The notes under the pieces: model-generated | Told to the model about the DNA's origin: nothing | Database searches by the model: none | Seen by the model: the letters and a program-made list of their open reading frames with translations, nothing else | Translations under genes and position numbers: made by a program | Source: Balaenoptera acutorostrata | Lineage: Eukaryota > Chordata > Mammalia > Artiodactyla > Balaenopteridae | NCBI RefSeq assembly: GCF_949987535.1 | Contig: NW_026646032.1 | Span: 1 to 64,000 of the forward strand | Length of the DNA stretch: 64,000 bases | Direction of reading: 5' to 3' | Part shown: piece after piece, positions 1-28,944 of the stretch | How the letters are laid out: each line of letters begins with the position of its first letter | Position numbering within the stretch: the first letter of the stretch is position 1

Positions 1-92
1 AGTGTCTAAACTCTTCTCCATGGCTGGACCCCCAAATAATATTCCTTTACGTGCTAAGGGGTATCTAGAGAGTGGGATAGGTTTAATAAGTA
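1..92 (+). repeat. Unit head (non-telomeric), unit 1 as the example
   Basis: This 92-base head opens every unit and is the most constant part of the array. Landmarks are CCATGG at 18-23, AATATT at 38-43 and TCTAGA at 64-69, each present once in most units. Common variants that mark unit types are the base after CTCTT (C, or A in units at 15905, 18425 and 33961), CCT versus CCC before TTACGTGC, and AACTA versus AAGTA at the junction with the tract. It matches no gene or RNA family that I recognise. It is an open frame in nearly all units but shows no sign of being a gene. Confidence 0.9.
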
Positions 93-290
93 CCCTAACC
101 CTAACGCGTACCCTAACCCTAACCCCTACCCTAAACCTAACGCGTACCCTAATCCTAACCCGTACCCTAAACCGAGCCCTAACCCTAACACTAACCCTAA
201 CCCTAACCCTAGCCCATACCCTACGCCGTACCCGAACCCCTCCCCGAACCCGTACCCTAAGCCGTACCCTAACCCTAACCCTAACCCTAA
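93..290 (+). repeat. Patterned telomere-like tract of 33 hexamers, unit 1 as the example
   Basis: The 198 bases divide exactly into 33 hexamers with no register break. Most are CCCTAA. The exceptions, by ordinal, are 3 and 9 CGCGTA, 6 CCCCTA, 8 ACCTAA (only in the A-type unit), 11 TCCTAA, 12 and 27 CCCGTA, 14 ACCGAG, 17 CACTAA, 20 CCCTAG, 21 CCCATA, 22 CCCTAC, 23 and 29 GCCGTA, 24 and 26 CCCGAA, and 25 CCCCTC. Hexamers 30-33 are a pure CCCTAA run whose length (3 to 8) accounts for most size differences between units. A second, shorter variable run lies between CACTAA and CCCTAG. The two CGCGTA hexamers create two MluI-type ACGCGT sites, 36 bases apart (104-109 and 140-145). The - strand is strongly G-rich. 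Confidence 0.95.
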
Positions 291-410
291 GCTACCCTTG
301 ACTGCTTCTGCCTCCAATAGATTTCCTAAGCACTAATGTTTTAAGGAACAGGTTTAAAAGAGAATCCTAATGTGATTTCTTGAGAATGGGTGTGTTCCTT
401 ATCTTATCCT
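291..410 (+). repeat. Unit tail (non-telomeric), unit 1 as the example
   Basis: This 120-base tail begins GCTACCCTTGACTGC and ends at the next AGTGTCTAA. It carries the best markers of unit type: CACTAGTG, CACTAATG, CACTACTG or CACCAGTC in the middle; GGGTGTG, GTGTGTG, GGGCGTG or GGGGGTG near the end; and TTATCTTATCC, TTCTCTCATCC, TTATCTTAATC or TTATCTTCTCC last. Units starting at 34383, 35214, 36979 and 42374 share a one-base loss with substitution (CCAAAAATTT in place of CCAATAGATTT), which makes them 409 long. No promoter, terminator or RNA gene can be supported in it. Confidence 0.9.
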
Positions 411-1676
411 AGTGTCTAAACTCTTCTCCATGGCTGGACCCCCAAATAATATTCCTTTACGTGCTAAGGGGTATCTAGAGAGTGGGATAGGTTTAATAAC
501 TACCCTAACCCTAACGCGTACCCTAACCCTAACCCCTACCCTAACCCTAACGCGTACCCTAATCCTAACCCGTACCCTAAACCGAGCCCTAACCCTAACA
601 CTAACCCTAACCCTAACCCTAGCCCATACCCTACGCCGTACCCGAACCCCTCCCCGAACCCCTCCCCGAACCCGTACCCTAAGCTGTACCCTAACCCTAA
701 CCCTAACCCTAAGCTACCCTTGACTGCTTCTGCCTCCAATAGATTTCCTAAGCACTAGTGTTTTAAGGAACAGGTTAAAAAGAGAATCCTAATGTGATTT
801 CTTGAGAATGTGTGTGTTCCTTATCTTATCCTAGTGTCTAAACTCTTCTCCATGGCTGGACCCCCAAATAATATTCCTTTACGTGCTAAGGGGTATCTAG
901 AGAGTGGGATAGGTTTAATAACTACCCTAACCCTAACGCGTACCCTAACCCTAACCCCTACCCTAACCCTAACGCGTACCCTAATCCTAACCCGTACCCT
1001 AAACCGAGCCCTAACCCTAACACTAACCCTAACCCTAACCCTAGCCCATACCCTACGCCGTACCCGAACCCCTCCCCGAACCCGTACCCTAAGCCGTACC
1101 CTAACCCTAACCCTAACCCTAACCCTAACCCTAAGCTACCCTTGACTGCTTCTGCCTCCAATAGATTTCCTAAATACTAGTGTTTTAAGGAACAGGTTAA
1201 AAAGAGAATCCTAATGTGATTTCTTGAGAATGGGCGTGTTCCTTATCTTATCCTAGTGTCTAAACTCTTCTCCATGGCTGGACCCCCAAATAATATTCCT
1301 TTACGTGCTAAGGGGTATCTAGAGAGTGGGATAGGTTTAATAACTACCCTAACCCTAACGCGTACCCTAACCCTAACCCCTACCCTAACCCTAACGCGTA
1401 CCCTAATCCTAACCCGTACCCTAAACCTAGCCCTAACCCTAACACTAACCCTAACCCTAGCCCATACCCTACGCCGTACCCGAATCCCTCCCCGAACCCG
1501 TACCCTAAGCCGTACCCTAACCCTAACCCTAACCCTAACCCTAACCCTAACCCTAAGCTACCCTTGACTGCTTCTGCCTCCAATAGATTTCCTAAGCACT
1601 AGTGTTTTAAGGAACAGGTTAAAAAGAGAATCCTAATGTGATTTCTTGAGAATGGGTGTGTTCCTTATCTTATCCT

Positions 1677-2092
1677 AGTGTCTAAACTCTTCTCCATGGC
1701 TGGACCCCCAAATAATATTCCCTTACGTGCTAAGGGGTATCTAGAGAGTGGGATAGGTTTAATAACTACCCTAACCCTAACGCGTACCCTAACCCTAACC
1801 CCTACCCTAACCCTAACGCGTACCCTAATCCTAACCCGTACCCTAAACCGAGCCCTAACCCTAACACTAACCCTAACCCTAACCCTAACCCTAACCCTAA
1901 CCCCTCCCCGAACCCGTACCCTAAGCCGTACCCTAACCCTAACCCTAACCCTAACCCTAACCCTAACCCTGAGCTACCCTTGACTGCTTCTGCCTCCAAT
2001 AGATTTCCTAAGCACTAGTGTTTTAAGGAACAGGTTAAAAAGAGAATCCTAATGTGATTTCTTGAGAATGGGTGTGTTCCTTATCTTATCCT
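1677..2092 (+). repeat. E-type unit (416), rearranged tract
   Basis: In this unit the five hexamers CCCTAG, CCCATA, CCCTAC, GCCGTA and CCCGAA are gone, and CACTAA is followed by five CCCTAA leading straight to CCCCTC. The tract ends in CCCTGA instead of CCCTAA. The change looks like a replacement of variant hexamers by canonical ones in register. The only other unit with this tract is at 12969. Confidence 0.85.
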
Positions 2093-2502
2093 AGTGTCTA
2101 AACTCTTCTCCATGGCTGGACCCCCAAATAATATTCCTTTACGTGCTAAGGGGTATCTAGAGAGTGGGATAGGTTTAATAACTACCCTAACCCTAACGCG
2201 TACCCTAACCCTAACCCCTACCCTAACCCTAACGCGTACCCTAATCCTAACCCGTACCCTAAACCGAGCCCTAACCCTAACACTAACCCTAACCCTAGCC
2301 CATACCCTACGCCGTACCCGAACCCCTCCCCGAACCCGTACCCTAAGCCGTACCCTAACCCTAACCCTAACCCTAACCCTAAGCTACCCTTGACTGCTTC
2401 TGCCTCCAATAGATTTCCTAAGCACTACTGTTTTAAGGAACAGGTTAAAAAGAGAATCCTAATGTGATTTCTTGAGAATGGGTGTGTTCCTTCTCTCATC
2501 CT
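2093..2502 (+). repeat. F-type unit (410)
   Basis: One CCCTAA between CACTAA and CCCTAG and five terminal CCCTAA. The tail carries CACTACTG and TTCTCTCATCC. That tail variant nearly always directly precedes an A unit, so tail and following head travel together as one block. Related units with longer terminal runs start at 4589, 10871, 23061, 26425 and 29373. Confidence 0.82.
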
Positions 2503-4178
2503 AGTGTCTAAACTGTTCTCCATGGCTGGACCCCCAAATAATATTCCTTTACGTGCTAAGGGGTATCTAGAGAGTGGGATAGGTTTAATAAGTACCCTAA
2601 CCCTAACGCGTACCCTAACCCTAACCCCTACCCTAAACCTAACGCGTACCCTAATCCTAACCCGTACCCTAAACCGAGCCCTAACCCTAACACTAACCCT
2701 AACCCTAACCCTAGCCCATACCCTACGCCGTACCCGAACCCCTCCCCGAACCCGTACCCTAAGCCGTACCCTAACCCTAACCCTAACCCTAAGCTACCCT
2801 TGACTGCTTCTGCCTCCAATAGATTTCCTAAGCACTAATGTTTTAAGGAACAGGTTAAAAAGAGAATCCTAATGTGATTTCTTGAGAATGGGTGTGTTCC
2901 TTATCTTATCCTAGTGTCTAAACTCTTCTCCATGGCTGGACCCCCAAATAATATTCCTTTACGTGCTAAGGGGTATCTAGAGAGTGGGATAGGTTTAATA
3001 ACTACCCTAACCCTAACGCGTACCCTAACCCTAACCCCTACCCTAACCCTAACGCGTACCCTAATCCTAACCCGTACCCTAAACCGAGCCCTAACCCTAA
3101 CACTAACCCTAACCCTAACCCTAGCCCATACCCTACGCCGTACCCGAACCCCTCCCCGAACCCCTCCCCGAACCCGTACCCTAAGCTGTACCCTAACCCT
3201 AACCCTAACCCTAAGCTACCCTTGACTGCTTCTGCCTCCAATAGATTTCCTAAGCACTAGTGTTTTAAGGAACAGGTTAAAAAGAGAATCCTAATGTGAT
3301 TTCTTGAGAATGTGTGTGTTCCTTATCTTATCCTAGTGTCTAAACTCTTCTCCATGGCTGGACCCCCAAATAATATTCCTTTACGTGCTAAGGGGTATCT
3401 AGAGAGTGGGATAGGTTTAATAACTACCCTAACCCTAACGCGTACCCTAACCCTAACCCCTACCCTAACCCTAACGCGTACCCTAATCCTAACCCGTACC
3501 CTAAACCGAGCCCTAACCCTAACACTAACCCTAACCCTAACCCTAGCCCATACCCTACGCCGTACCCGAACCCCTCCCCGAACCCGTACCCTAAGCCGTA
3601 CCCTAACCCTAACCCTAACCCTAACCCTAACCCTAAGCTACCCTTGACTGCTTCTGCCTCCAATAGATTTCCTAAGCACTAATGTTTTAAGGAACAGGTT
3701 AAAAAGAGAATCCTAATGTGATTTCTTGAGAATGGGCGTGTTCCTTATCTTATCCTAGTGTCTAAACTCTTCTCCATGGCTGGACCCCCAAATAATATTC
3801 CTTTACGTGCTAAGGGGTATCTAGAGAGTGGGATAGGTTTAATAACTACCCTAACCCTAACGCGTACCCTAACCCTAACCCCTACCCTAACCCTAACGCG
3901 TACCCTAATCCTAACCCGTACCCTAAACCTAGCCCTAACCCTAACACTAACCCTAACCCTAGCCCATACCCTACGCCGTACCCGAACCCCTCCCCGAACC
4001 CGTACCCTAAGCCGTACCCTAACCCTAACCCTAACCCTAACCCTAACCCTAACCCTAAGCTACCCTTGACTGCTTCTGCCTCCAATAGATTTCCTAAGCA
4101 CTACTGTTTTAAGGAACAGGTTAAAAAGAGAATCCTAATGTGATTTCTTGAGAATGGGTGTGTTCCTTCTCTCATCCT
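2503..4178 (+). repeat. Higher-order repeat A-B-C-D, copy 2
   Basis: Units start at 2503, 2913, 3335 and 3757 with the A, B, C and D markers of copy 1. The A unit has a private CTGTTCTCC in its head, shared only with the A unit at 13385. The D unit ends in the CACTACTG / TTCTCTCATCC tail normally found on F units, so it looks like a D-F hybrid with the exchange in the tail. Confidence 0.87.
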
Positions 4179-6686
4179 AGTGTCTAAACTCTTCTCCATG
4201 GCTGGACCCCCAAATAATATTCCTTTACGTGCTAAGGGGTATCTAGAGAGTGGGATAGGTTTAATAAGTACCCTAACCCTAACGCGTACCCTAACCCTAA
4301 CCCCTACCCTAAACCTAACGCGTACCCTAATCCTAACCCGTACCCTAAACCGAGCCCTAACCCTAACACTAACCCTAACCCTAACCCTAGCCCATACCCT
4401 ACGCCGTACCCGAACCCCTCCCCGAACCCGTACCCTAAGCCGTACCCTAACCCTAACCCTAACCCTAAGCTACCCTTGACTGCTTCTGCCTCCAATAGAT
4501 TTCCTAAGCACTAATGTTTTAAGGAACAGGTTAAAAAGAGAATCCTAATGTGATTTCTTGAGAATGGGTGTGTTCCTTATCTTATCCTAGTGTCTAAACT
4601 CTTCTCCATGGCTGGACCCCCAAATAATATTCCTTTACGTGCTAAGGGGTATCTAGAGAGTGGGATAGGTTTAATAACTACCCTAACCCTAACGCGTACC
4701 CTAACCCTAACCCCTACCCTAACCCTAACGCGTACCCTAATCCTAACCCGTACCCTAAACCGAGCCCTAACCCTAACACTAACCCTAACCCTAGCCCATA
4801 CCCTACGCCGTACCCGAACCCCTCCCCGAACCCGTACCCTAAGCCGTACCCTAACCCTAACCCTAACCCTAACCCTAACCCTAACCCTAAGCTACCCTTG
4901 ACTGCTTCTGCCTCCAATAGATTTCCTAAGCACTACTGTTTTAAGGAACAGGTTAAAAAGAGAATCCTAATGTGATTTCTTGAGAATGGGTGTGTTCCTT
5001 CTCTCATCCTAGTGTCTAAACTCTTCTCCATGGCTGGACCCCCAAATAATATTCCTTTACGTGCTAAGGGGTATCTAGAGAGTGGGATAGGTTTAATAAG
5101 TACCCTAACCCTAACGCGTACCCTAACCCTAACCCCTACCCTAAACCTAACGCGTACCCTAATCCTAACCCGTACCCTAAACCGAGCCCTAACCCTAACA
5201 CTAACCCTAACCCTAACCCTAGCCCATACCCTACGCCGTACCCGAACCCCTCCCCGAACCCGTACCCTAAGCCGTACCCTAACCCTAACCCTAACCCTAA
5301 GCTACCCTTGACTGCTTCTGCCTCCAATAGATTTCCTAAGCACTAATGTTTTAAGGAACAGGTTAAAAAGAGAATCCTAATGTGATTTCTTGAGAATGGG
5401 TGTGTTCCTTATCTTATCCTAGTGTCTAAACTCTTCTCCATGGCTGGACCCCCAAATAATATTCCTTTACGTGCTAAGGGGTATCTAGAGAGTGGGATAG
5501 GTTTAATAACTACCCTAACCCTAACGCGTACCCTAACCCTAACCCCTACCCTAACCCTAACGCGTACCCTAATCCTAACCCGTACCCTAAACCGAGCCCT
5601 AACCCTAACACTAACCCTAACCCTAACCCTAGCCCATACCCTACGCCGTACCCGAACCCCTCCCCGAACCCCTCCCCGAACCCGTACCCTAAGCTGTACC
5701 CTAACCCTAACCCTAACCCTAAGCTACCCTTGACTGCTTCTGCCTCCAATAGATTTCCTAAGCACTAGTGTTTTAAGGAACAGGTTAAAAAGAGAATCCT
5801 AATGTGATTTCTTGAGAATGTGTGTGTTCCTTATCTTATCCTAGTGTCTAAACTCTTCTCCATGGCTGGACCCCCAAATAATATTCCTTTACGTGCTAAG
5901 GGGTATCTAGAGAGTGGGATAGGTTTAATAACTACCCTAACCCTAACGCGTACCCTAACCCTAACCCCTACCCTAACCCTAACGCGTACCCTAATCCTAA
6001 CCCGTACCCTAAACCGAGCCCTAACCCTAACACTAACCCTAACCCTAACCCTAGCCCATACCCTACGCCGTACCCGAACCCCTCCCCGAACCCGTACCCT
6101 AAGCCGTACCCTAACCCTAACCCTAACCCTAACCCTAACCCTAAGCTACCCTTGACTGCTTCTGCATCCAATAGATTTCCTAAGCACTAATGTTTTAAGG
6201 AACAGGTTAAAAAGAGAATCCTAATGTGATTTCTTGAGAATGGGCGTGTTCCTTATCTTATCCTAGTGTCTAAACTCTTCTCCATGGCTGGACCCCCAAA
6301 TAATATTCCTTTACGTGCTAAGGGGTATCTAGAGAGTGGGATAGGTTTAATAACTACCCTAACCCTAACGCGTACCCTAACCCTAACCCCTACCCTAACC
6401 CTAACGCGTACCCTAATCCTAACCCGTACCCTAAACCTAGCCCTAACCCTAACACTAACCCTAACCCTAGCCCATACCCTACGCCGTACCCGAACCCCTC
6501 CCCGAACCCGTACCCTAAGCCGTACCCTAACCCTAACCCTAACCCTAACCCTAACCCTAACCCTAAGCTACCCTTGACTGCTTCTGCCTCCAATAGATTT
6601 CCTAAGCACTAGTGTTTTAAGGAACAGGTTAAAAAGAGAATCCTAATGTGATTTCTTGAGAATGGGTGTGTTCCTTATCTTATCCT
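4179..6686 (+). repeat. Six-unit block A-F'-A-B-C-D, first copy of a dispersed 2,508-base duplication
   Basis: Units start at 4179 (410), 4589 (422), 5011 (410), 5421, 5843 and 6265 (422 each). The same series of types and lengths returns at 10461-12968, displaced by 6,282 bases, including the rare C-unit variant TCTGCATCC near 6165. All six units have the same length and, as far as I can read, the same tract in both copies. The last four units are copy 3 of A-B-C-D (5011-6686). F' is the F type with seven terminal CCCTAA. Confidence 0.85.
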
Positions 6687-8766
6687 AGTGTCTAAACTCT
6701 TCTCCATGGCTGGACCCCCAAATAATATTCCCTTACGTGCTAAGGGGTATCTAGAGAGTGGGATAGGTTTAATAACTACCCTAACCCTAACGCGTACCCT
6801 AACCCTAACCCCTAACCTAACCCTAACGCGTACCCTAATCCTAACCCGTACCCTAAACCGAGCCCTAACCCTAACACTAACCCTAACCCTAGCCCATACC
6901 CTACGCCGTACCCGAACCCCTCCCCGAACCCGTACCCTAAGCCGTACCCTAACCCTAACCCTAACCCTAACCCTAACCCTAACCCTAAGCTACCCTTGAC
7001 TGCTTCTGCCTCCAATAGATTTCCTAAGCACTAGTGTTTTAAGGAACAGGTTAAAAAGAGAATCCTAATGTGATTTCTTGAGAATGGGTGTGTTCCTTAT
7101 CTTATCCTAGTGTCTAAACTCTTCTCCATGGCTGGACCCCCAAATAATATTCCCTTACGTGCTAAGGGGTATCTAGAGAGTGGGATAGGTTTAATAACTA
7201 CCCTAACCCTAACGCGTACCCTAACCCTAACCCCTACCCTAACCCTAACGCGTACCCTAATCCTAACCCGTACCCTAAACCGAGCCCTAACCCTAACACT
7301 AACCCTAACCCTAACCCTAGCCCATACCCTACGCCGTACCCGAACCCCTCCCCGAACCCGTACCCTAAGCCGTACACTAACCCTAACCCTAAACCTAACC
7401 CTAACCCTAAGCTACCCTTGACTGCTTCTGCCTCCGATAGATTTCCTAAGCACTAGTGTTTTAAGGAACAGGTTAAAAAGAGAATCCTAATGTGATTTCT
7501 TGAGAATGGGTGTGTTCCGTATCTTATCCTAGTGTCTAAACTCTTCTCCATGGCTGGACCCCCAAATAATATTCCTTTACGTGCTAAGGGGTATCTAGAG
7601 AGTGGGATAGGTTTAATAACTACCCTAACCCTAACGCGTACCCTAACCCTAACGCGTACCCTAATCCTAACCCGTACCCTAAACCGAGCCCTAACCCTAA
7701 CACTAACCCTAACCCTAACCCTAGCCCATACCCTACGCCATACCCGAACCCCTCCCCGAACCCGTACCCTAAGCCGTACCCTAACCCTAACCCTAACCCT
7801 AAGCTACCCTTGACTGCTTCTGCCTCCAATAGATTTCCTAAGCACTAGTGTTTTAAGGAACAGGTTAAAAAGAGAATCCTAATGTGATTTCTTGAGAATG
7901 GGTGTGTTCCTTATCTTATCCTAGTGTCTAAACTCTTCTCCATGGCTGGACCCCCAAATAATATTCCCTTACGTGCTAAGGGGTATCTAGAGAGTGGGAT
8001 AGGTTTAATAACTACCCTAACCCTAACGCGTACCCTAACCCTAACCCCTACCCTAACCCTAACGCGTACCCTAATCCTAACCCGTACCCTAAACCGAGCC
8101 CTAACCCTAACACTAACCCTAACCCTAACCATAGCCCATACCCTACGCCGTACCCGAACCCCTCCCCGAACCCGTACCCTAAGCCGTACCCTAACCCTAA
8201 CCCTAACCCTAACCCTAACCCTAAGCTACCCTTGACTGCTTCTGCCTCCGATAGATTTCCTAAGCACTAGTGTTTTAAGGAACAGGTTAAAAAGAGAATC
8301 CTAATGTGATTTCTTGTGAATGGGTGTGTTCCTTATCTTATCCTAGTGTCTAAACTCTTCTCCATGGCTGGACCCCCAAATAATATTCCCTTACGTGCTA
8401 AGGGGTATCTAGAGAGTGGGATAGGTTTAATAACTACCCTAACCCTAACGCGTACCCTAACCCTAACCCCTACCCTAACCCTAACGCGTACCCTAATCCT
8501 AACCCGTACCCTAAACCGAGCCCTAACCCTAACACTAACCCTAACCCTAACCCTAACCCATACCCTACGCCGTACCCGAACCCCTCCCCGAACCCGTACC
8601 CTAAGCCGTACCCTAACCCTAACCCTAAACCTAACCCTAACCCTAAGCTACCCTTGACTGCTTCTGCATCCAATAGATTTCCTAAGCACTAATGTTTTAA
8701 GGAACAGGTTAAAAAGAGAATCCTAATGTGATTTCTTGAGAATGGGCGTGTTCCTTATCTTATCCT
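6687..8766 (+). repeat. Five mixed units (17-21)
   Basis: Units start at 6687, 7109, 7531, 7923 and 8345. All are 422 except 7531, which is 392. The first has CCCCTA followed by ACCTAA. The second has ACCTAA within the terminal run and CCGATAG in the tail, as do the units at 9189 and 10039. The fourth has CCATAG in place of CCCTAG. The fifth has CCCTAA in that place and the TCTGCATCC tail. Heads with CCC before TTACGTGC dominate here. Confidence 0.85.
7531..7922 (+). repeat. Short unit (392), three hexamers lost
   Basis: The tract is 30 hexamers (7623-7802). Only two CCCTAA separate the two CGCGTA hexamers, where other units have five hexamers including CCCCTA. The loss is exactly 18 bases and keeps register, so the two ACGCGT sites are 18 apart here and 36 apart elsewhere. 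In-register slippage or exchange between the two identical CGCGTA flanks explains it. Confidence 0.88.
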
Positions 8767-10460
8767 AGTGTCTAAACTCTTCTCCATGGCTGGACCCCCA
8801 AATAATATTCCTTTACGTGCTAAGGGGTATCTAGAGAGTGGGATAGGTTTAATAACTACCCTAACCCTAACGCGTACCCTAACCCTAACCCCTACCCTAA
8901 CCCTAACGCGTACCCTAATCCTAACCCGTACCCTAAACCTAGCCCTAACCCTAACACTAACCCTAACCCTAGCCCATACCCTACGCCGTACCCGAACCCC
9001 TCCCCGAACCCGTACCCTAAGCCGTACCCTAACCCTAACCCTAACCCTAACCCTAACCCTAACCCTAAGCTACCCTTGACTGCTTCTGCCTCCAATAGAT
9101 TTCCTAAGCACTAGTGTTTTAAGGAACAGGTTAAAAAGAGAATCCTAATGTGATTTCTTGAGAATGGGTGTGTTCCTTATCTTATCCTAGTGTCTAAACT
9201 CTTCTCCATGGCTGGACCCCCAAATAATATTCCCTTACGTGCTAAGGGGTATCTAGAGAGTGGGATAGGTTTAATAACTACCCTAACCCTAACGCGTACC
9301 CTAACCCTAACCCCTACCCTAACCCTAACGCGTACCCTAATCCTAACCCGTACCCTAAACCGAGCCCTAACCCTAACACTAACCCTAACCCTAACCCTAG
9401 CCCATACCCTACGCCGTACCCGAACCCCTCCCCGAACCCGTACCCTAAGCCGTACCCTAACCCTAACCCTAAACCTAACCCTAACCCTAAGCTACCCTTG
9501 ACTGCTTCTGCCTCCGATAGATTTCCTAAGCACTAGTGTTTTAAGGAACAGGTTAAAAAGAGAATCCTAATGTGATTTCTTGAGAATGGGTGTGTTCCGT
9601 ATCTTATCCTAGTGTCTAAACTCTTCTCCATGGCTGGACCCCCAAATAATATTCCTTTACGTGCTAAGGGGTATCTAGAGAGTGGGATAGGTTTAATAAC
9701 TACCCTAACCCTAACGCGTACCCTAACCCTAACCCCTACCCTAACCCTAACGCGTACCCTAATCCTAACCCGTACCCTAAACCTAGCCCTAACCCTAACA
9801 CTAACCCTAACCCTAGCCCATACCCTACGCCGTACCCGAACCCCTCCCCGAACCCGTACCCTAAGCCGTACCCTAACCCTAACCCTAACCCTAACCCTAA
9901 CCCTAACCCTAACCCTAAGCTACCCTTGACTGCTTCTGCCTCCAATAGATTTCCTAAGCACTAGTGTTTTAAGGAACAGGTTAAAAAGAGAATCCTAATG
10001 TGATTTCTTGAGAATGGGTGTGTTCCTTATCTTATCCTAGTGTCTAAACTCTTCTCCATGGCTGGACCCCCAAATAATATTCCCTTACGTGCTAAGGGGT
10101 ATCTAGAGAGTGGGATAGGTTTAATAACTACCCTAACCCTAACGCGTACCCTAACCCTAACCCCTACCCTAACCCTAACGCGTACCCTAATCCTAACCCG
10201 TACCCTAAACCGAGCCCTAACCCTAACACTAACCCTAACCCTAACCCTAGCCCATACCCTACGCCGTACCCGAACCCCTCCCCGAACCCGTACCCTAAGC
10301 CGTACCCTAACCCTAACCCTAAACCTAACCCTAACCCTAAGCTACCCTTGACTGCTTCTGCCTCCGATAGATTTCCTAAGCACTAGTGTTTTAAGGAACA
10401 GGTTAAAAAGAGAATCCTAATGTGATTTCTTGAGAATGGGTGTGTTCCGTATCTTATCCT
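8767..10460 (+). repeat. Duplicated dimer (units 22-23 and 24-25)
   Basis: The pair 8767-9610 (422+422) is followed by a near copy at 9611-10460 (428+422). The first member of each pair is D-type. In the second pair it has gained one terminal CCCTAA (eight in place of seven). The second member of each has ACCTAA in the terminal run, CCGATAG in the tail and TTCCGTATC at the end. This is a tandem dimer duplication followed by a one-hexamer slip. Confidence 0.83.
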
Positions 10461-12968
10461 AGTGTCTAAACTCTTCTCCATGGCTGGACCCCCAAATAAT
10501 ATTCCTTTACGTGCTAAGGGGTATCTAGAGAGTGGGATAGGTTTAATAAGTACCCTAACCCTAACGCGTACCCTAACCCTAACCCCTACCCTAAACCTAA
10601 CGCGTACCCTAATCCTAACCCGTACCCTAAACCGAGCCCTAACCCTAACACTAACCCTAACCCTAACCCTAGCCCATACCCTACGCCGTACCCGAACCCC
10701 TCCCCGAACCCGTACCCTAAGCCGTACCCTAACCCTAACCCTAACCCTAAGCTACCCTTGACTGCTTCTGCCTCCAATAGATTTCCTAAGCACTAATGTT
10801 TTAAGGAACAGGTTAAAAAGAGAATCCTAATGTGATTTCTTGAGAATGGGTGTGTTCCTTATCTTATCCTAGTGTCTAAACTCTTCTCCATGGCTGGACC
10901 CCCAAATAATATTCCTTTACGTGCTAAGGGGTATCTAGAGAGTGGGATAGGTTTAATAACTACCCTAACCCTAACGCGTACCCTAACCCTAACCCCTACC
11001 CTAACCCTAACGCGTACCCTAATCCTAACCCGTACCCTAAACCGAGCCCTAACCCTAACACTAACCCTAACCCTAGCCCATACCCTACGCCGTACCCGAA
11101 CCCCTCCCCGAACCCGTACCCTAAGCCGTACCCTAACCCTAACCCTAACCCTAACCCTAACCCTAACCCTAAGCTACCCTTGACTGCTTCTGCCTCCAAT
11201 AGATTTCCTAAGCACTACTGTTTTAAGGAACAGGTTAAAAAGAGAATCCTAATGTGATTTCTTGAGAATGGGTGTGTTCCTTCTCTCATCCTAGTGTCTA
11301 AACTCTTCTCCATGGCTGGACCCCCAAATAATATTCCTTTACGTGCTAAGGGGTATCTAGAGAGTGGGATAGGTTTAATAAGTACCCTAACCCTAACGCG
11401 TACCCTAACCCTAACCCCTACCCTAAACCTAACGCGTACCCTAATCCTAACCCGTACCCTAAACCGAGCCCTAACCCTAACACTAACCCTAACCCTAACC
11501 CTAGCCCATACCCTACGCCGTACCCGAACCCCTCCCCGAACCCGTACCCTAAGCCGTACCCTAACCCTAACCCTAACCCTAAGCTACCCTTGACTGCTTC
11601 TGCCTCCAATAGATTTCCTAAGCACTAATGTTTTAAGGAACAGGTTAAAAAGAGAATCCTAATGTGATTTCTTGAGAATGGGTGTGTTCCTTATCTTATC
11701 CTAGTGTCTAAACTCTTCTCCATGGCTGGACCCCCAAATAATATTCCTTTACGTGCTAAGGGGTATCTAGAGAGTGGGATAGGTTTAATAACTACCCTAA
11801 CCCTAACGCGTACCCTAACCCTAACCCCTACCCTAACCCTAACGCGTACCCTAATCCTAACCCGTACCCTAAACCGAGCCCTAACCCTAACACTAACCCT
11901 AACCCTAACCCTAGCCCATACCCTACGCCGTACCCGAACCCCTCCCCGAACCCCTCCCCGAACCCGTACCCTAAGCTGTACCCTAACCCTAACCCTAACC
12001 CTAAGCTACCCTTGACTGCTTCTGCCTCCAATAGATTTCCTAAGCACTAGTGTTTTAAGGAACAGGTTAAAAAGAGAATCCTAATGTGATTTCTTGAGAA
12101 TGTGTGTGTTCCTTATCTTATCCTAGTGTCTAAACTCTTCTCCATGGCTGGACCCCCAAATAATATTCCTTTACGTGCTAAGGGGTATCTAGAGAGTGGG
12201 ATAGGTTTAATAACTACCCTAACCCTAACGCGTACCCTAACCCTAACCCCTACCCTAACCCTAACGCGTACCCTAATCCTAACCCGTACCCTAAACCGAG
12301 CCCTAACCCTAACACTAACCCTAACCCTAACCCTAGCCCATACCCTACGCCGTACCCGAACCCCTCCCCGAACCCGTACCCTAAGCCGTACCCTAACCCT
12401 AACCCTAACCCTAACCCTAACCCTAAGCTACCCTTGACTGCTTCTGCATCCAATAGATTTCCTAAGCACTAATGTTTTAAGGAACAGGTTAAAAAGAGAA
12501 TCCTAATGTGATTTCTTGAGAATGGGCGTGTTCCTTATCTTATCCTAGTGTCTAAACTCTTCTCCATGGCTGGACCCCCAAATAATATTCCTTTACGTGC
12601 TAAGGGGTATCTAGAGAGTGGGATAGGTTTAATAACTACCCTAACCCTAACGCGTACCCTAACCCTAACCCCTACCCTAACCCTAACGCGTACCCTAATC
12701 CTAACCCGTACCCTAAACCTAGCCCTAACCCTAACACTAACCCTAACCCTAGCCCATACCCTACGCCGTACCCGAACCCCTCCCCGAACCCGTACCCTAA
12801 GCCGTACCCTAACCCTAACCCTAACCCTAACCCTAACCCTAACCCTAAGCTACCCTTGACTGCTTCTGCCTCCAATAGATTTCCTAAGCACTAGTGTTTT
12901 AAGGAACAGGTTAAAAAGAGAATCCTAATGTGATTTCTTGAGAATGGGTGTGTTCCTTATCTTATCCT
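10461..12968 (+). repeat. Six-unit block A-F'-A-B-C-D, second copy of the dispersed duplication
   Basis: Units start at 10461, 10871, 11293, 11703, 12125 and 12547 and match the block at 4179-6686 unit for unit in type and length. The TCTGCATCC variant is present near 12447. The last four units are copy 4 of A-B-C-D (11293-12968). The units before and after the two copies differ, so the edges lie close to 4179/10461 and 6686/12968. Confidence 0.85.
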
Positions 12969-13384
12969 AGTGTCTAAACTCTTCTCCATGGCTGGACCCC
13001 CAAATAATATTCCCTTACGTGCTAAGGGGTATCTAGAGAGTGGGATAGGTTTAATAACTACCCTAACCCTAACGCGTACCCTAACCCTAACCCCTACCCT
13101 AACCCTAACGCGTACCCTAATCCTAACCCGTACCCTAAACTGAGCCCTAACCCTAACACTAACCCTAACCCTAACCCTAACCCTAACCCTAACCCCTCCC
13201 CGAACCCGTACCCTAAGCCGTACCCTAACCCTAACCCTAACCCTAACCCTAACCCTAACCCTGAGCTACCCTTGACTGCTTCTGCCTCCAATAGATTTCC
13301 TAAGCACTAGTGTTTTAAGGAACAGGTTAAAAAGAGAATCCTAATGTGATTTCTTGAGAATGGGTGTGTTCCTTCTCTCATCCT
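12969..13384 (+). repeat. Hybrid unit: E tract with F-type end (416)
   Basis: The tract is that of the E unit at 1677 (five CCCTAA leading into CCCCTC, CCCTGA end) with one private change, ACTGAG in place of ACCGAG. The tail starts as E (CACTAGTG) but ends as F (TTCTCTCATCC), and the next unit has the CTGTTCTCC head that follows the F unit at 2093. The order A-B-C-D-E-F-A-B-C-D at 1-4178 is thus A-B-C-D-(E/F)-A-B-C-D at 11293-15060. An unequal exchange within the tail, roughly 13310-13375, would remove one unit and give this hybrid. Confidence 0.78.
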
Positions 13385-15060
13385 AGTGTCTAAACTGTTC
13401 TCCATGGCTGGACCCCCAAATAATATTCCTTTACGTGCTAAGGGGTATCTAGAGAGTGGGATAGGTTTAATAAGTACCCTAACCCTAACGCGTACCCTAA
13501 CCCTAACCCCTACCCTAAACCTAACGCGTACCCTAATCCTAACCCGTACCCTAAACCGAGCCCTAACCCTAACACTAACCCTAACCCTAACCCTAGCCCA
13601 TACCCTACGCCGTACCCGAACCCCTCCCCGAACCCGTACCCTAAGCCGTACCCTAACCCTAACCCTAACCCTAAGCTACCCTTGACTGCTTCTGCCTCCA
13701 ATAGATTTCCTAAGCACTAATGTTTTAAGGAACAGGTTAAAAAGAGAATCCTAATGTGATTTCTTGAGAATGGGTGTGTTCCTTATCTTATCCTAGTGTC
13801 TAAACTCTTCTCCATGGCTGGACCCCCAAATAATATTCCTTTACGTGCTAAGGGGTATCTAGAGAGTGGGATAGGTTTAATAACTACCCTAACCCTAACG
13901 CGTACCCTAACCCTAACCCCTACCCTAACCCTAACGCGTACCCTTATCCTAACCCGTACCCTAAACCGAGCCCTAACCCTAACACTAACCCTAACCCTAA
14001 CCCTAGCCCATACCCTACGCCGTACCCGAACCCCTCCCCGAACCCCTCCCCGAACCCGTACCCTAAGCTGTACCCTAACCCTAACCCTAACCCTAAGCTA
14101 CCCTTGACTGCTTCTGCCTCCAATAGATTTCCTAAGCACTAGTGTTTTAAGGAACAGGTTAAAAAGAGAATCCTAATGTGATTTCTTGAGAATGTGTGTG
14201 TTCCTTATCTTATCCTAGTGTCTAAACTCTTCTCCATGGCTGGACCCCCAAATAATATTCCTTTACGTGCTAAGGGGTATCTAGAGAGTGGGATAGGTTT
14301 AATAACTACCCTAACCCTAACGCGTACCCTAACCCTAACCCCTACCCTAACCCTAACGCGTACCCTAATCCTAACCCGTACCCTAAACCGAGCCCTAACC
14401 CTAACACTAACCCTAACCCTAACCCTAGCCCATACCCTACGCCGTACCCGAACCCCTCCCCGAACCCGTACCCTAAGCCGTACCCTAACCCTAACCCTAA
14501 CCCTAACCCTAACCCTAAGCTACCCTTGACTGCTTCTGCCTCCAATAGATTTCCTAAGCACTAATGTTTTAAGGAACAGGTTAAAAAGAGAATCCTAATG
14601 TGATTTCTTGAGAATGGGCGTGTTCCTTATCTTATCCTAGTGTCTAAACTCTTCTCCATGGCTGGACCCCCAAATAATATTCCTTTACGTGCTTAGGGGT
14701 ATCTAGAGAGTGGGATAGGTTTAATAACTACCCTAACCCTAACGCGTACCCTAACCCTAACCCCTACCCTAACCCTAACGCGTACCCTAATCCTAACCCG
14801 TACCCTAAACCTAGCCCTAACCCTAACACTAACCCTAACCCTAGCCCATACCCTACGCCGTACCCGAACCCCTCCCCGAACCCGTACCCTAAGCCGTACC
14901 CTAACCCTAACCCTAACCCTAACCCTAACCCTAACCCTAAGCTACCCTTGACTGCTTCTGCCTCCAATAGATTTCCTAAGCACTACTGTTTTAAGGAACA
15001 GGTTAAAAAGAGAATCCTAATGTGATTTCTTGAGAATGGGTGTGTTCCTTCTCTCATCCT
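13385..15060 (+). repeat. Higher-order repeat A-B-C-D, copy 5
   Basis: Units start at 13385, 13795, 14217 and 14639. Private changes include CCCTTA in place of CCCTAA in the B tract near 13943, and GCTTAGGGG in place of GCTAAGGGG in the D head near 14694, which puts a stop in the otherwise open head frame. The D unit ends with the CACTACTG / TTCTCTCATCC tail, as in copy 2. Confidence 0.86.
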
Positions 15061-15482
15061 AGTGTCTAAACTCTTCTCCATGGCTGGACCCCCAAATAAT
15101 ATTCCTTTACGTGCTAAGGGGTATCTAGAGAGTGGGATAGGTTTAATAAGTACCCTAACCCTAACGCGTACCCTAACCCTAACCCCTACCCTAAACCTAA
15201 CGCGTACCCTAATCCTAACCCGTACCCTAAACCGAGCCCTAACCCTAACACTAACCCTAACCCTAACCCTAGCCCATACCCTACGCCGTACCCGAACCCC
15301 TCCCCGAACCCCTCCCCGAACCCGTACCCTAAGCTGTACCCTAACCCTAACACTAACCCTAAGCTACCCTTGACTGCTTCTGCCTCCAATAGATTTCCTA
15401 AGCACTAGTGTTTTAAGGAACAGGTTAAAAAGAGAATCCTAATGTGATTTCTTGAGAATGGGTGTGTTCCTTATCTTATCCT
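15061..15482 (+). repeat. Hybrid unit: A head and B end (422)
   Basis: The left half has A markers (AAGTA junction, ACCTAA as hexamer 8). The right half has B markers (doubled CCCCTC-CCCGAA, GCTGTA, CACTAGTG tail). One terminal CCCTAA is CACTAA. An exchange between A and B within the tract, which removes one unit, accounts for it. The following C and D units are absent, so this is where the A-B-C-D organisation ends until 23483. Confidence 0.8.
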
Positions 15483-18002
15483 AGTGTCTAAACTCTTCTC
15501 CATGGCTGGACCCCCAAATAATATTCCTTTACGTGCTAAGGGGTATCTAGAGAGTGGGATAGGTTTAATAACTACCCTAACCCTAACGCGTACCCTAACC
15601 CTAACCCCTACCCTAACCCTAACGCGTATCCTAATCCTAACCCGTACCCTAAACCGAGCCCTAACCCTAACACTAACCCTAACCCTAACCCTAGCCCATA
15701 CCCTACGCCGTACCCGAACCCCTCCCCGAACCCGTACCCTAAGCCGTACCCTAACCCTAACCCTAAACCTAACCCTAACCCTAAGCTACCCTTGACTGCT
15801 TCTGCCTCCAATAGATTTCCTAAGCACTACTGTTTTAAGGAACAGGTTAAAAAGAGAATCCTAATGTGATTTCTTGAGAATGGGTGTGTTCCTTATCTTA
15901 TCCTAGTGTCTAAACTCTTATCCTTGGCTGGACCCCCAAATAATATTCCTTTACGTGCTAAGGGGTATCTAGAGAGTGGGATAGGTTTAATAAGTACCCT
16001 AACCCTAACGCGTACCCTAACCCTAACCCCTACCCTAGCCCTAACGCGTACCCTAATCCTAACCCGTACCCTAAACCGAGCCCTAACCCTAACACTAACC
16101 CTAACCCTAACCATAGCCCATGCCCTACGCCGTACCCGAACCCCTCCCCGAACCCGTACCCTAGGCCGTACCCTAACCCTAACCCTAACCCTAACACTAA
16201 CCCTAAGCTACCCTTGACTGCTTCTGCCTCCAATAGATTTCCTAAGCACTAGTGTTTTAAGGAACAGGTTAAAAACAGAATCCTAATGTGATTTCTTGAG
16301 AATGGGTGTGTTCCTTATCTTATCCTAGTGTCTAAACTCTTCTCCATGGCTGGACCCCCAAATAATATTCCCTTACGTGCTAAGGGGTATCTAGAGAGTG
16401 GGATAGGTTTAATAACTACCCTAACCCTAACGCGTACCCTAACCCTAACCCCTGCCCTAACCCTAACGCGTACCCTAATCCTAACCCGTACCCTAAACCG
16501 AGCCCTAAACCTAACACTAACCCTAACCCTAACCCTAGCCCATACCCTACGCCGTACCCGAACCCCTCCCCGAACCCGTACCCTAAGCCGTACCCTAACC
16601 CTAACCCTAACCCTAACCCTAACCCTAAGCTACCCTTGACTGCTTCTGCCTCCAATAGATTTCCTAAGCACTAGTGTTTTAAGGAACAGGTTAAAAAGAG
16701 AATCCTAAAGTGATTTCTTGAGAATGGGTGTGTTCCTTATCTTATCCTAGTGTCTAAACTCTTCTCCATGGCTGGACCCCCAAATAATATTCCTTTACGT
16801 GCTAAGGGGTATCTAGAGAGTGGGATAGGTTTAATAACTACCCTAACCCTAACGCGTACCCTAACCCTAACCCCTACCCTAACCCTAACGCGTACCCTAA
16901 TCCTAACCCGTACCCTAAACCGAGCCCTAACCCTAACACTAACCCTAACCCTAACCCTAGCCCATACCCTACGCCGTACCCGAACCCCTCCCCGAACCCG
17001 TACCCTAAGCCGTACCCTAACCCTAACCCTAACCCTAACCCTAACCCTAAGCTACCCTTGACTGCTTCTGCCTCCGATAGATTTCCTAAGCACTAGTGTT
17101 TTAAGGAACAGGTTAAAAAGAGAATCCTAATGTGATTTCTTGAGAATGGGTGTGTTCCTTATCTTATCCTAGTGTCTAAACTCTTCTCCATGGCTGGACC
17201 CCCAAATAATATTCCTTTACGTGCTAAGGGGTATCTAGAGAGTGGGATAGGTTTAATAACTACCCTAACCCTAACGCGTACCCTAACCCTAACCACTACC
17301 CTAACCCTAACGCGTACCCTAATCCTAACCCGTACCCTAATCCGAGCCCTAACCCTAACACTAACCCTAACCCTAACCCTAGCCCATACCCTACGCCGTA
17401 CCCGAACCCCTCCCCGAACCCGTACCCTAAGCCGTACCCTAACCCTAACCCTAACCCTAACCCTAACCCTAAGCTACCCTTGACTGCTTCTGCCTCCAAT
17501 AGATTTCCTAAGCACTAGTGTTTTAAGGAACAGGTTAAAAAGAGAATCCTAATGTGATTTCTTGAGAATGGGTGTGTTCCTTATCTTATCCTAGTGTCTA
17601 AACTCTTCTCCATGGCTGGACCCCCAAATAATATTCCTTTACGTGCTAAGGGGTATCTAGAGAGTGGGATAGGTTTAATAACTACCCTAACCCTAACGCG
17701 TACCCTAACCCTAACCCCTACCCTAACCCTAACGCGTACCCTAATCCTAACCCGTACCCTAAACCGAGCCCTAACCCTAACACTAACCCTAACCCTAACC
17801 CTAGCCCATACCCTACGCCGTACCCGAACCCCTCCCCGAACCCGTACCCTAAGCCATACCCTAACCCTAACCCTAACCCTAAGCTACCCTTGACTGCTTC
17901 TGCCTCCAATAGATTTCCTAAGCACTAATGTTTTAAGGAACAGGTTAAAAAGAGAATCCTAATGTGATTTCTTGAGAATGGGTGTGTTCCTTATCTTATC
18001 CT
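15483..18002 (+). repeat. Six-unit block, first copy of a very young tandem duplication
   Basis: Units start at 15483, 15905, 16327, 16749, 17171 (422 each) and 17593 (410). Private markers are GCGTATCC in the first, CTCTTATCC with CCCTAGCCC and TAGGCCG in the second, CCTGCCC and AGCCCTAAACC in the third, CCGATAG in the fourth, and AACCACTACC with TCCGAG in the fifth. The five 422 units return at 18003-20112. Position by position, 15409-17855 and 17929-20375 (2,447 bases) differ at four sites: 15924/18444, 16081/18601, 16311/18831 and 17471/19991. Confidence 0.88.
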
Positions 18003-20534
18003 AGTGTCTAAACTCTTCTCCATGGCTGGACCCCCAAATAATATTCCTTTACGTGCTAAGGGGTATCTAGAGAGTGGGATAGGTTTAATAACTACCCTAA
18101 CCCTAACGCGTACCCTAACCCTAACCCCTACCCTAACCCTAACGCGTATCCTAATCCTAACCCGTACCCTAAACCGAGCCCTAACCCTAACACTAACCCT
18201 AACCCTAACCCTAGCCCATACCCTACGCCGTACCCGAACCCCTCCCCGAACCCGTACCCTAAGCCGTACCCTAACCCTAACCCTAAACCTAACCCTAACC
18301 CTAAGCTACCCTTGACTGCTTCTGCCTCCAATAGATTTCCTAAGCACTACTGTTTTAAGGAACAGGTTAAAAAGAGAATCCTAATGTGATTTCTTGAGAA
18401 TGGGTGTGTTCCTTATCTTATCCTAGTGTCTAAACTCTTATCCATGGCTGGACCCCCAAATAATATTCCTTTACGTGCTAAGGGGTATCTAGAGAGTGGG
18501 ATAGGTTTAATAAGTACCCTAACCCTAACGCGTACCCTAACCCTAACCCCTACCCTAGCCCTAACGCGTACCCTAATCCTAACCCGTACCCTAAACCGAG
18601 TCCTAACCCTAACACTAACCCTAACCCTAACCATAGCCCATGCCCTACGCCGTACCCGAACCCCTCCCCGAACCCGTACCCTAGGCCGTACCCTAACCCT
18701 AACCCTAACCCTAACACTAACCCTAAGCTACCCTTGACTGCTTCTGCCTCCAATAGATTTCCTAAGCACTAGTGTTTTAAGGAACAGGTTAAAAACAGAA
18801 TCCTAATGTGATTTCTTGAGAATGGGTGTGCTCCTTATCTTATCCTAGTGTCTAAACTCTTCTCCATGGCTGGACCCCCAAATAATATTCCCTTACGTGC
18901 TAAGGGGTATCTAGAGAGTGGGATAGGTTTAATAACTACCCTAACCCTAACGCGTACCCTAACCCTAACCCCTGCCCTAACCCTAACGCGTACCCTAATC
19001 CTAACCCGTACCCTAAACCGAGCCCTAAACCTAACACTAACCCTAACCCTAACCCTAGCCCATACCCTACGCCGTACCCGAACCCCTCCCCGAACCCGTA
19101 CCCTAAGCCGTACCCTAACCCTAACCCTAACCCTAACCCTAACCCTAAGCTACCCTTGACTGCTTCTGCCTCCAATAGATTTCCTAAGCACTAGTGTTTT
19201 AAGGAACAGGTTAAAAAGAGAATCCTAAAGTGATTTCTTGAGAATGGGTGTGTTCCTTATCTTATCCTAGTGTCTAAACTCTTCTCCATGGCTGGACCCC
19301 CAAATAATATTCCTTTACGTGCTAAGGGGTATCTAGAGAGTGGGATAGGTTTAATAACTACCCTAACCCTAACGCGTACCCTAACCCTAACCCCTACCCT
19401 AACCCTAACGCGTACCCTAATCCTAACCCGTACCCTAAACCGAGCCCTAACCCTAACACTAACCCTAACCCTAACCCTAGCCCATACCCTACGCCGTACC
19501 CGAACCCCTCCCCGAACCCGTACCCTAAGCCGTACCCTAACCCTAACCCTAACCCTAACCCTAACCCTAAGCTACCCTTGACTGCTTCTGCCTCCGATAG
19601 ATTTCCTAAGCACTAGTGTTTTAAGGAACAGGTTAAAAAGAGAATCCTAATGTGATTTCTTGAGAATGGGTGTGTTCCTTATCTTATCCTAGTGTCTAAA
19701 CTCTTCTCCATGGCTGGACCCCCAAATAATATTCCTTTACGTGCTAAGGGGTATCTAGAGAGTGGGATAGGTTTAATAACTACCCTAACCCTAACGCGTA
19801 CCCTAACCCTAACCACTACCCTAACCCTAACGCGTACCCTAATCCTAACCCGTACCCTAATCCGAGCCCTAACCCTAACACTAACCCTAACCCTAACCCT
19901 AGCCCATACCCTACGCCGTACCCGAACCCCTCCCCGAACCCGTACCCTAAGCCGTACCCTAACCCTAACCCTAACCCTAACCCTAACCCTTAGCTACCCT
20001 TGACTGCTTCTGCCTCCAATAGATTTCCTAAGCACTAGTGTTTTAAGGAACAGGTTAAAAAGAGAATCCTAATGTGATTTCTTGAGAATGGGTGTGTTCC
20101 TTATCTTATCCTAGTGTCTAAACTCTTCTCCATGGCTGGACCCCCAAATAATATTCCTTTACGTGCTAAGGGGTATCTAGAGAGTGGGATAGGTTTAATA
20201 ACTACCCTAACCCTAACGCGTACCCTAACCCTAACCCCTACCCTAACCCTAACGCGTACCCTAATCCTAACCCGTACCCTAAACCGAGCCCTAACCCTAA
20301 CACTAACCCTAACCCTAACCCTAGCCCATACCCTACGCCGTACCCGAACCCCTCCCCGAACCCGTACCCTAAGCCGTACCCTAACCCTAACCCTAACCCT
20401 AACCCTAACCCTAAGCTACCCTTGACTGCTTCTGCCTCCAATAGATTTCCTAAGCACTAGTGTTTTAAGGAACAGGTTAAAAAGAGAATCCTAATGTGAT
20501 TTCTTGAGAATGGGTGTGTTCCTTATCTTATCCT
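18003..20534 (+). repeat. Six-unit block, second copy of the young tandem duplication
   Basis: Units start at 18003, 18425, 18847, 19269, 19691 and 20113, all 422. The first five match the preceding block with the four substitutions listed there. The sixth differs from its counterpart at 17593 by two more terminal CCCTAA and by GCCGTA in place of GCCATA. One of the four changes (19991) turns the last AAGCTACC into TAGCTACC. Confidence 0.88.
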
Positions 20535-22216
20535 AGTGTCTAAACTCTTCTCCATGGCTGGACCCCCAAATAATATTCCTTTACGTGCTAAGGGGTATCT
20601 AGAGAGTGGGATAGGTTTAATAACTACCCTAACCCTAAAGCGTACCCTAACCCTAACCCCTACCCTAACCCTAACGTGTACCCTAATCCTAACCCGTACC
20701 CTAAACCGAGCCCTAACTCTAACACTAACCCTAACCCTAACCCTAGCCCATACCCTAGGCCGTACCCGAACACCTCCCCGAACCCGTACCCTAAGCCGTA
20801 CCCTAACCCTAACCCTAACCCTAACCCTAAGCTACCCTTGACTGCTTCTGCCTCCAATAGATTTCCTAAGCACTAGTGTTTTAAGGAACAGGTTAAAAAG
20901 AGAATCCTAATGTGATTTCTTGAGAATGGGTGTGTTCCTTATCTTATCCTAGTGTCTAAACTCTTCTCCATGGCTGGACCCCCAAATAATATTCCCTTAC
21001 GTGCTAAGGGGTATCTAGAGAGTGGGATAGGTTTAATAACTACCCTAACCCTAACGCGTACCCTAACCCTAACCCCTACCCTAACCCTAACGCGTACCCT
21101 AATCCTAACCCGTACCCTAAACCGAGCCCTAACCCTAACACTAACCCTAACCCTAACCCTAGCCCATACCCTACGCCGTACCCGAACCCCTCCCCGAACC
21201 CGTACCCTTAGCCGTACCGTAACCCTAACCCTAACCCTAACCCTAACCCTAAGCTACCCTTGACTGCTTCTGCCTCCAATAGATTTCCTAAGCACTAGTG
21301 TTTTAAGGAACAGGTTAAAAAGAGTATCCTAATGTGATTTCTTGAGAATGGGTGTGTTCCTTATCTTATCCTAGTGTCTAAACTCTTCTCCATGGCTGGA
21401 CCCCCAAATAATATTCCTTTACGTGCTAAGGGGTATCTAGAGAGTGGGATAGGTTTAATAACTACCCTAACCCTAACGCGTACCCTAACCCTAACCCCTA
21501 CCCTAACCCTAACGCGTACCCTAATCCTAACCCGTACCCTAAACCGAGCCCTAACCCTAACACTAACCCTAACCCTAACCCTAGCCCATACCCTACACCG
21601 TACCCGAACACCTCCCCGAACCCGTACCCTAAGCCGTGCCCTAACCCTAACCCTAACCCTAACCCTAACCCTAAGCTACCCTTGACTGCTTCTGCCTCCA
21701 ATAGATTTCCTAAGCACTAGTGTTTTAAGGAACAGGTTAAAAAGAGAATCCTAATGTGATTTCTTGAGAATGGGTGTGTTCCTTATCTTATCCTAGTGTC
21801 TAAACTCTTCTCCATGGCTGGACCCCCAAATAATATTCCCTTACGTGCTAAGGGGTATCTAGAGAGTGGGATAGGTTTAATAACTACCCTAACCCTAACG
21901 CGTACCCTAACCCTAACCCCTACCCTAACCCTAACGCGTACCCTAATCCTAACCCGTACCCTAAACCGAGCCCTAACCCTAACACTAACCCTAACCCTAA
22001 CCCTAGCCCATACCCTACGCCGTACCCGAACCCCTCCCCGAACCCGTACCCTAAGCCGTACCCTAACCCTAACCCTAACCCTAACCCTAACCCTAAGCTA
22101 CCCTTGACTGCTTCTGCCTCCAATAGATTTCCTAAGCACTAGTGTTTTAAGGAACAGGTTAAAAAGAGAATCCTAATGTGATTTCTTGAGAATGGGTGTG
22201 TTCCTTATCTTATCCT
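20535..22216 (+). repeat. Four units with private substitutions (50-53)
   Basis: Units start at 20535 (416), 20951, 21373 and 21795 (422 each). The first is unusually divergent for this half of the array: AAGCGTA, CGTGTA, a CTCTAAC, TAGGCCG and CGAACACC all occur in it. The second has CCTTAGCCG, ACCGTAACC and AGAGTATCC. The third has CTACACCG, CGAACACC and GCCGTGCC. The fourth shows no private change that I can see. Confidence 0.83.
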
Positions 22217-25200: not shown

Positions 25201-25581
25201 TCCCTTACGTGCTAAGGGGTATCTAGAGAGTGGGATAGGTTTAATAACTACCCTAACCCTAACGCGTACCCTAACCCTAACCCCTACCCTAACCCTAACG
25301 CGTACCCTAATCCTAACCCGTACCCTAAACCGAGCCCTAACCCTAACACTAACCCTAACCCTAACCCTAGCCCATACCCTACGCCGTACCCGAACCCCTC
25401 CCCGAACCCGTACCCTAAGCCGTACCCTAACCCTAACCCTAACCCTAACCCTAACCCTAAGCTACCCTTGACTGCTTCTGCCTCCAATAGATTTCCTAAG
25501 CACTAGTGTTTTAAGGAACAGGTTAACAAAGAGAATCCTAATGTGATTTCTTGAGAATGGGTGTGTTCCTTATCTTATCCT
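22217..25581 (+). repeat. Eight-unit block (3,365 bases), first of two tandem copies
   Basis: Units start at 22217 (416), 22633 (428), 23061 (422), 23483 (410), 23893, 24315, 24737 (422 each) and 25159 (423). Shared private markers with the next block are CGTAACCTAAACC and CGCCATACC in the first unit, CCACGGCTGG, ACCCTACCCC and GCAATAGTG in the second, CCCTAGCCC at the start of the A tract, GTTTCATAAC in the C head and CAGGGTAAAA in the D tail. Units four to seven are copy 6 of A-B-C-D (23483-25158). Confidence 0.87.
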
Positions 25582-28500: not shown

Positions 28501-28944
28501 GGTGTGTTCCTTATCTTATCCTAGTGTCTAAACTCTTCTCCATGGCTGGACCCCCAAATAATATTCCCTTACGTGCTAAGGGGTATCTAGAGAGTGGGAT
28601 AGGTTTAATAACTACCCTAACCCTAACGCGTACCCTAACCCTAACCCCTACCCTAACCCTAACGCGTACCCTAATCCTAACCCGTACCCTAAACCGAGCC
28701 CTAACCCTAACACTAACCCTAACCCTAACCCTAGCCCATACCCTACGCCGTACCCGAACCCCTCCCCGAACCCGTACCCTAAGCCGTACCCTAACCCTAA
28801 CCCTAACCCTAACCCTAACCCTAAGCTACCCTTGACTGCTTCTGCCTCCAATAGATTTCCTAAGCACTAGTGTTTTAAGGAACAGGTTAAAAAGAGAATC
28901 CTAATGTGATTTCTTGAGAATGGGTGTGTTCCTTATCTTATCCT
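25582..28944 (+). repeat. Eight-unit block (3,363 bases), second tandem copy
   Basis: Units start at 25582 (415), 25997 (428), 26425, 26847 (410), 27257, 27679, 28101 and 28523. It repeats the private markers of 22217-25581 in the same order. One tract difference is ACCTAA in place of CCCTAA in the second unit near 26130. The first unit carries several small indels (see the finding on 25525-25885). Units four to seven are copy 7 of A-B-C-D (26847-28522). Confidence 0.87.

Follow-up and report, generated by a model that had tools for sequence, protein, structure and literature searches.

A telomere-related terminal satellite of a whale and a TTAGGG/TACGGG mosaic at inner telomeres of the same genome

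A satellite that is terminally located and present in all whalebone whales is announced in the title of Adegoke, Arnason and Widegren (1993, Chromosoma 102:382), which is referenced in PMC5088352, PMC7763226 and PMC3975639. The passages citing it in PMC5088352 and PMC3975639 speak of a telomere-related sequence as part of the satellite DNA, and a passage of PMC7763226 puts heterochromatin at up to 25–30% of whale genomes. Other described systems resemble the satellite reported here in part. FA-SAT, the major cat satellite, is described as lying primarily at telomeres, as the satellite here is terminal; FA-SAT is also described as GC-rich, whereas the whale satellite has 47–48% G+C and is half non-telomeric. 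FA-SAT reportedly originated from the hexamer TAACCC and has a unit of 483 bp. It was the first candidate identity considered and was dropped.

Mammalian telomeres have variant repeat zones, in which canonical and variant hexamers are intermixed at the inner edge, and the same arrangement is seen in this whale. Known human variants include TGAGGG, TCAGGG and TTGGGG; here the variant is TACGGG and, unlike in the known zones, one stretch is frozen inside a satellite. The TALT units of telomerase-negative Caenorhabditis elegans survivors (Seo et al. 2015, PMC4595603) are genomic blocks flanked by telomere-like sequence and amplified at chromosome ends, a trait that the whale satellite shares. TALT is described there as a response to telomerase loss, whereas the whale satellite belongs to the germline, is old and sits in a genome that has telomerase RNA (TERC) and canonical telomeres.

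The array, its placement and its published counterpart

We analysed a stretch of 64,000 nucleotides, hereafter the window, which begins the 77,984-bp contig C566. The tandem repeat finder run that the first-pass annotation had proposed returned a single array over the whole window (1–64000; period 422, 153.1 copies, 93% matches), and the 422-bp satellite continues through the other 13,984 bases to the end of the contig. The features on which the analysis rests are as follows.

1..64000, + strand: satellite array of a 422-bp unit, about 153 copies in a single orientation (TRF).
93..290, + strand: telomere-type hexamer tract of unit 1, 33 hexamers on the C-rich strand with variants in fixed places (direct reading and ordinal table of 153 units).
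93..164, + strand: first twelve hexamers of that tract, forming four 18-bp triplets (reading and periodicity analysis).
291..502, + strand: non-telomeric part, the tail of unit 1 (120 bp) followed by the head of unit 2 (92 bp) (reading; matchless in the collections searched).

Each unit joins 212–213 bp of ordinary sequence to about 209 bp of CCCTAA-type hexamers. Read directly, unit 1 occupies positions 1–410 and consists of a 92-base head, the tract at 93–290 and a 120-base tail; its non-telomeric part thus amounts to 92 + 120 = 212 bp, 213 bp being usual elsewhere. A canonical run near the right end of the tract varies in length, and the spacing between units is exactly 422 in 85 of 153 cases. 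The G+C content of the window is 46.8–48.4%, and no complete open reading frame of at least 150 amino acids was found in it. Putative TRF1/TRF2-type sites number 10.5 per unit.

Across the genome, a 26-base core of the unit has 108,649 exact occurrences (55,777 forward and 52,872 reverse), which at 422 bp each correspond to about 46 Mb, or 1.65% of the 2.77-Gb assembly, inexact copies being uncounted. We examined the 28 ends of 14 chromosome-scale contigs, inspecting the outermost 10 kb on the left and 2 kb on the right. The satellite was present at six of them: on the + strand at the left ends of C3, C6, C18 and C19, and on the - strand at the right ends of C1 and C17, so that the C-rich strand has telomere orientation at all six. 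At the other 22 ends no satellite was found within the 2–10 kb examined, nor was any found at the left starts of C4 and C8–C12, six contigs shorter than 2 Mb that lie outside the 28. The right end of C1 stops 56 bases into a canonical run. No clean junction between satellite and telomere was seen at the ends examined, and the telomere mosaics of C3 and C13 described below border other DNA.

Copies also lie inside C1, so the satellite family is not terminal only. Averaged over BLAST matches of at least 300 bases, those near 138.5 Mb are 86.7–90.4% identical to the window consensus and are older, while those near 134.6 Mb are better conserved (95.0–96.5%); at both places most retain the same variant order. 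At 134.6 Mb the few satellite units are bracketed by copies of one T-rich interspersed sequence (locus L004, 200–720 and 1870–2026), and the island looks as if it had been cut into, or carried by, that sequence.

We conclude that the 422-bp satellite is most likely the mysticete "heavy satellite". Shared traits are the whale host, a tandem unit of about 422 bp (422 by TRF), a telomere-related component (half of each unit is CCCTAA-type hexamers) and terminal placement, seen at 6 of 28 ends with 22 ends lacking it and internal copies on C1; the likeness is one of traits, and no difference was found among them. The whalebone-whale repeat is reportedly 422 bp long. We judged the satellite to be already known on the basis of the 1993 title, the passages that cite it and this reported length. 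The first-pass annotation knew of no described satellite with this structure, which is most likely wrong given that a terminal, telomere-related satellite of whalebone whales, as far as title and citing passages tell, was published in 1993. The satellite itself has thus most likely been in print since then, and the finding as first stated is ordinary.

Other loci show the host to be a whale. When the myoglobin exons on C17 were joined, the best solved matches, among the best 60 of 158, were reconstructed ancestral whale myoglobins, and the residues presumably fit baleen rather than toothed whales. A SINE beside the TERC gene resembles the CHR type of whales and ruminants.

Sequence collections gave no further identity. 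The unit had no Rfam match at gathering score, and none up to an E value of 10 for 1,301 bases; the non-telomeric part had no exact 26-mer match in bacterial, archaeal or viral contigs and no blastn match in plasmids and phages. These searches covered Rfam and prokaryote, virus and plasmid collections, where blanks mean little for a whale satellite. A flank derived from telomerase RNA, of the TERC-ITS kind, was another candidate; in the stretch tested, Rfam detected no telomerase RNA.

Order of the hexamer variants and homogeneity of the units

The first-pass annotation had described the tract of unit 1 as an unbroken series of hexamers with CGCGTA in places three and nine, CCCCTA in place six and ACCGAG in place fourteen, an order common to nearly all 153 units. 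Positions 93–290 read exactly so, and decomposition into hexamers by ordinal position, which it had suggested, bears out that the variant places are shared between units. Across the 153 aligned units, ordinals 1–28 show their consensus hexamer in between 116 of 151 units (the lowest, at ordinal 27) and 153 of 153. Among units in which the hexamer in question is ungapped, CGCGTA occurs at ordinal 3 in 135 of 151 and at ordinal 9 in 142 of 152, CCCCTA at ordinal 6 in 144 of 151, CCCGTA at ordinal 12 in 145 of 153, and ACCGAG at ordinal 14 in 125 of 153. All ordinal counts are restricted to ungapped units in this way; few units are lost at most ordinals, and about 20 each are left out at ordinals 17 and 18 for gaps inside the hexamer. 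Ordinals 29–31 are less stable (77/98, 98/100 and 86/109 ungapped units), and ordinal 30 is completely missing from 44 units.

Unit spacing minus 422 was a multiple of 6 in 144, 146 and 144 of 152 cases with three fixed anchors, and spacing stepped by 6 in 129 of 153 with a looser anchor; the multiple-of-6 spacings include one at 530 and one at 356. We infer that whole hexamers are gained or lost while the variant order stays unchanged.

The first third of the tract has an 18-bp rhythm, with variants at every third hexamer (3, 6, 9 and 12) and one more at 11. Each of the four triplets in 93–164 contains two hexamers of canonical type (CCCTAA or a one-base derivative) and one variant, and the closing variants are, in order, CGCGTA, CCCCTA, CGCGTA and CCCGTA. 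Self-similarity of the tract gave shuffle p values of 0.02 at lag 18 and 0.008 at lag 36, uncorrected for the eight lags tested.

The mean pairwise identity between units is 97.9%, and identity to the consensus is 99.3% in the head, 98.6% in the tract and 98.8% in the tail. The fixed places of the variants follow from this identity and are not independent evidence that register is kept; any variant would hold its place at such identity, and a special force keeping the hexamers in register is not needed. Identical unit pairs number 45 of 11,628. Nine runs of at least three successive units recur at one spacing, each pair differing by at most one change, and the longest spans six units; in 200 shuffles of unit order the mean was 0.015 such runs and the longest was three. 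Units have therefore been copied in irregular blocks. No regular higher-order repeat was found over lags 1–39, where mean identity stayed at 0.978–0.981. CpG positions of the unit consensus change about three times as often as other positions, with 63 transitions and 61 transversions at CpG and G to A as the commonest change (49). A methylation signature was considered and set aside, since simple deamination is no clean fit to near-equal transitions and transversions.

A TTAGGG/TACGGG mosaic at inner telomeres

What is new here is that some inner telomeres of this genome are a mosaic of TTAGGG and TACGGG. Contigs C13 and C20 start with kilobases of CCCTAA and CCCGTA (TTAGGG and TACGGG on the other strand), and CCCGTA contributes 225 of the 776 such hexamers at C13 and 107 of the 400 at C20 (about 27–29%). 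On C3 and C18 the last 2 kb are essentially pure, canonical terminal TTAGGG, and the mosaic lies about 11 kb and 5 kb inside, respectively; that of C3 grades into degenerate forms (CCCTAG, CCCATA, CCCTGA) and then into other DNA. Three mosaic stretches were read.

C13:1–4710: mosaic, 4,710 bases.
C20:1–2500: mosaic, 2,500 bases.
C3:183800901–183801500: mosaic, 600 bases.

A 57-base CCCGTA/CCCTAA mosaic probe has 81 copies genome-wide. Near one contig end lie 44 of them (4 on C3, 10 on C13, 5 on C18, 9 on C20 and 16 on C23); elsewhere, C932 has 35, and C25 (98.6 kb in) and C265 carry a single copy each. The order of two canonical hexamers followed by one variant is frequent in the inner-telomere mosaics, and the four-triplet order of the first twelve hexamers of the tract has 8 overlapping occurrences in each of two terminal mosaics. 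In 500 shuffles the means were 0.44 and 0.15, and the maxima 6 and 4.

TERC is present in this genome, although part of the gene reads N. Its template region reads CTAACCCTAATTG (locus L002, 1865–1928, minus strand), and the human template region is CTAACCCTAACTG. Because CTAACCCTAATTG does not specify TACGGG, the variant would have to be copied as DNA rather than templated. A second, weaker match to telomerase RNA lies at 378.5 kb on C26 (63 bits, below cut-off; locus L003, about 1711–1783). By eye this piece is nearly identical to TERC; A-rich sequence follows it, a configuration like that of a retrocopied pseudogene fragment.

No earlier report of telomeric TACGGG was found in a limited literature search that covered few subscription papers. 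Among publications pairing TACGGG with "telomer", none concerned mammalian telomere repeats as far as titles and the opening of abstracts tell.

Origin of the hexamer tract

From the satellite consensus alone, CCCGTA was the best second ancestral hexamer for the tract out of all 4096. It lowered the cost from 32 to 17, a gain of 15, against a best gain of 8 in 300 random-substitution controls, which scored the variants present and their neighbours rather than all 4096 hexamers. Two tract hexamers, ACCGAG and CCCCTC, are more than one change away from either ancestor, and CGCGTA, GCCGTA and ACCGAG have no occurrence in the three mosaic stretches of 4,710, 2,500 and 600 bases. All four must therefore be later changes in the satellite, and since the mosaics lack CGCGTA, GCCGTA and ACCGAG, the mosaic looks like the source rather than the product.

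Most likely, an inner telomere supplied the tract, which was captured with 213 bp of subtelomere and then amplified in blocks. We put at roughly 85% the probability of the whole explanation, namely that the array belongs to the terminal heavy satellite of baleen whales, formed from a mosaic telomere edge and about 213 bp of subtelomere and amplified in blocks. The first-pass annotation had proposed that a single capture placed a particular degenerate stretch beside 212 bp of other DNA, the whole then being amplified. This proposal gains support from the same variant order on six chromosome-scale contigs (C1, C3, C6, C17, C18 and C19), from the lack of a tract-less unit and from the TTAGGG/TACGGG mosaic as the likely source at inner telomeres. 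Head and tail joined without the tract had no exact match genome-wide (10-base head and 12-base tail anchors with 0–10 bases between), a search by exact anchors that would miss diverged tract-less forms. The same blank leaves the state before capture unseen, which counts against the picture, as does the lack of a clean junction between satellite and telomere.

Under this explanation, the inner edge of a single ancestral telomere would by then have been a degenerate TTAGGG/TACGGG mosaic, and would have been copied jointly with some 213 bp of the neighbouring subtelomere. The resulting 422-bp unit would then have spread in blocks of several units, reaching several chromosome ends, possibly by unequal exchange, break-induced copying or circles. 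Slippage in the tract would add or remove whole hexamers, and frequent exchange would keep units about 98% alike, the variant order being inherited as ordinary satellite sequence. The satellite may serve as bulk subtelomeric heterochromatin, a buffer inside the true telomere with about ten putative TRF1/TRF2-type sites per unit; judged from these motifs, shelterin binding to the units is plausible. What this adds to the published satellite is its link to an apparent source, the inferred second ancestor CCCGTA still standing at the inner edge of telomeres in the same genome. It provides a specific and testable example of a chromosome end giving rise to a satellite, and does so in long-lived animals, in which telomere biology attracts interest.

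A further reading, which we consider unlikely, holds that there is a telomere inner zone of TACGGG that is not template-encoded, and that the heavy satellite is a fossil of this zone and its subtelomeric edge, spread by telomere-to-telomere copying of the TALT/ALT type. Were this true, the satellite would record past recombination-based end maintenance and might still act as a reserve template.

It is very unlikely that transfer ran the other way, recombination having carried CCCGTA variants from the satellite into the inner telomere zone. The two do have the same orientation, which would allow recombination, and in 21 units genome-wide CGCGTA-CCCTAA-TCCTAA is immediately preceded by at least eight canonical hexamers, against two in the consensus (12 of these units are on C1371 and 4 on C250); these units could be junction remnants or plain slippage. 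However, the terminal mosaics consist over long distances of little else than two hexamers; CGCGTA, GCCGTA and ACCGAG, which should have come along in such a transfer, are missing from the three stretches read, and the 26-base satellite core, allowing up to five errors, is absent from the mosaic-bearing loci.

We find it hard to credit that the tract is not telomere-derived at all, being either an 18- or 36-bp minisatellite that resembles CCCTAA by chance or a hexamer expansion inside the satellite. The self-similarity of the tract at 18 and 36 bp and an 18-bp period found by TRF agree with such an origin, but the CCCGTA deduced from the tract is the main variant of the genome's own inner-telomere mosaics, two of these repeat its triplet order far beyond the shuffle means, and orientation is telomeric at every satellite-bearing end. 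That the array was collapsed or falsely expanded in assembly is a negligible prospect: array length is unreliable in a 78-kb contig of satellite alone, but chromosome-scale contigs anchor the unit in both orientations and with unchanged variant order, and the differences between units are point changes and length steps of whole hexamers.

An old and heavily degenerate telomere-like patch of about 550 bases, with remnants of CCCTAA and CCCGTA, is shared by the right ends of C6 and C7. The two copies are nearly identical by eye and represent a subtelomeric duplication.
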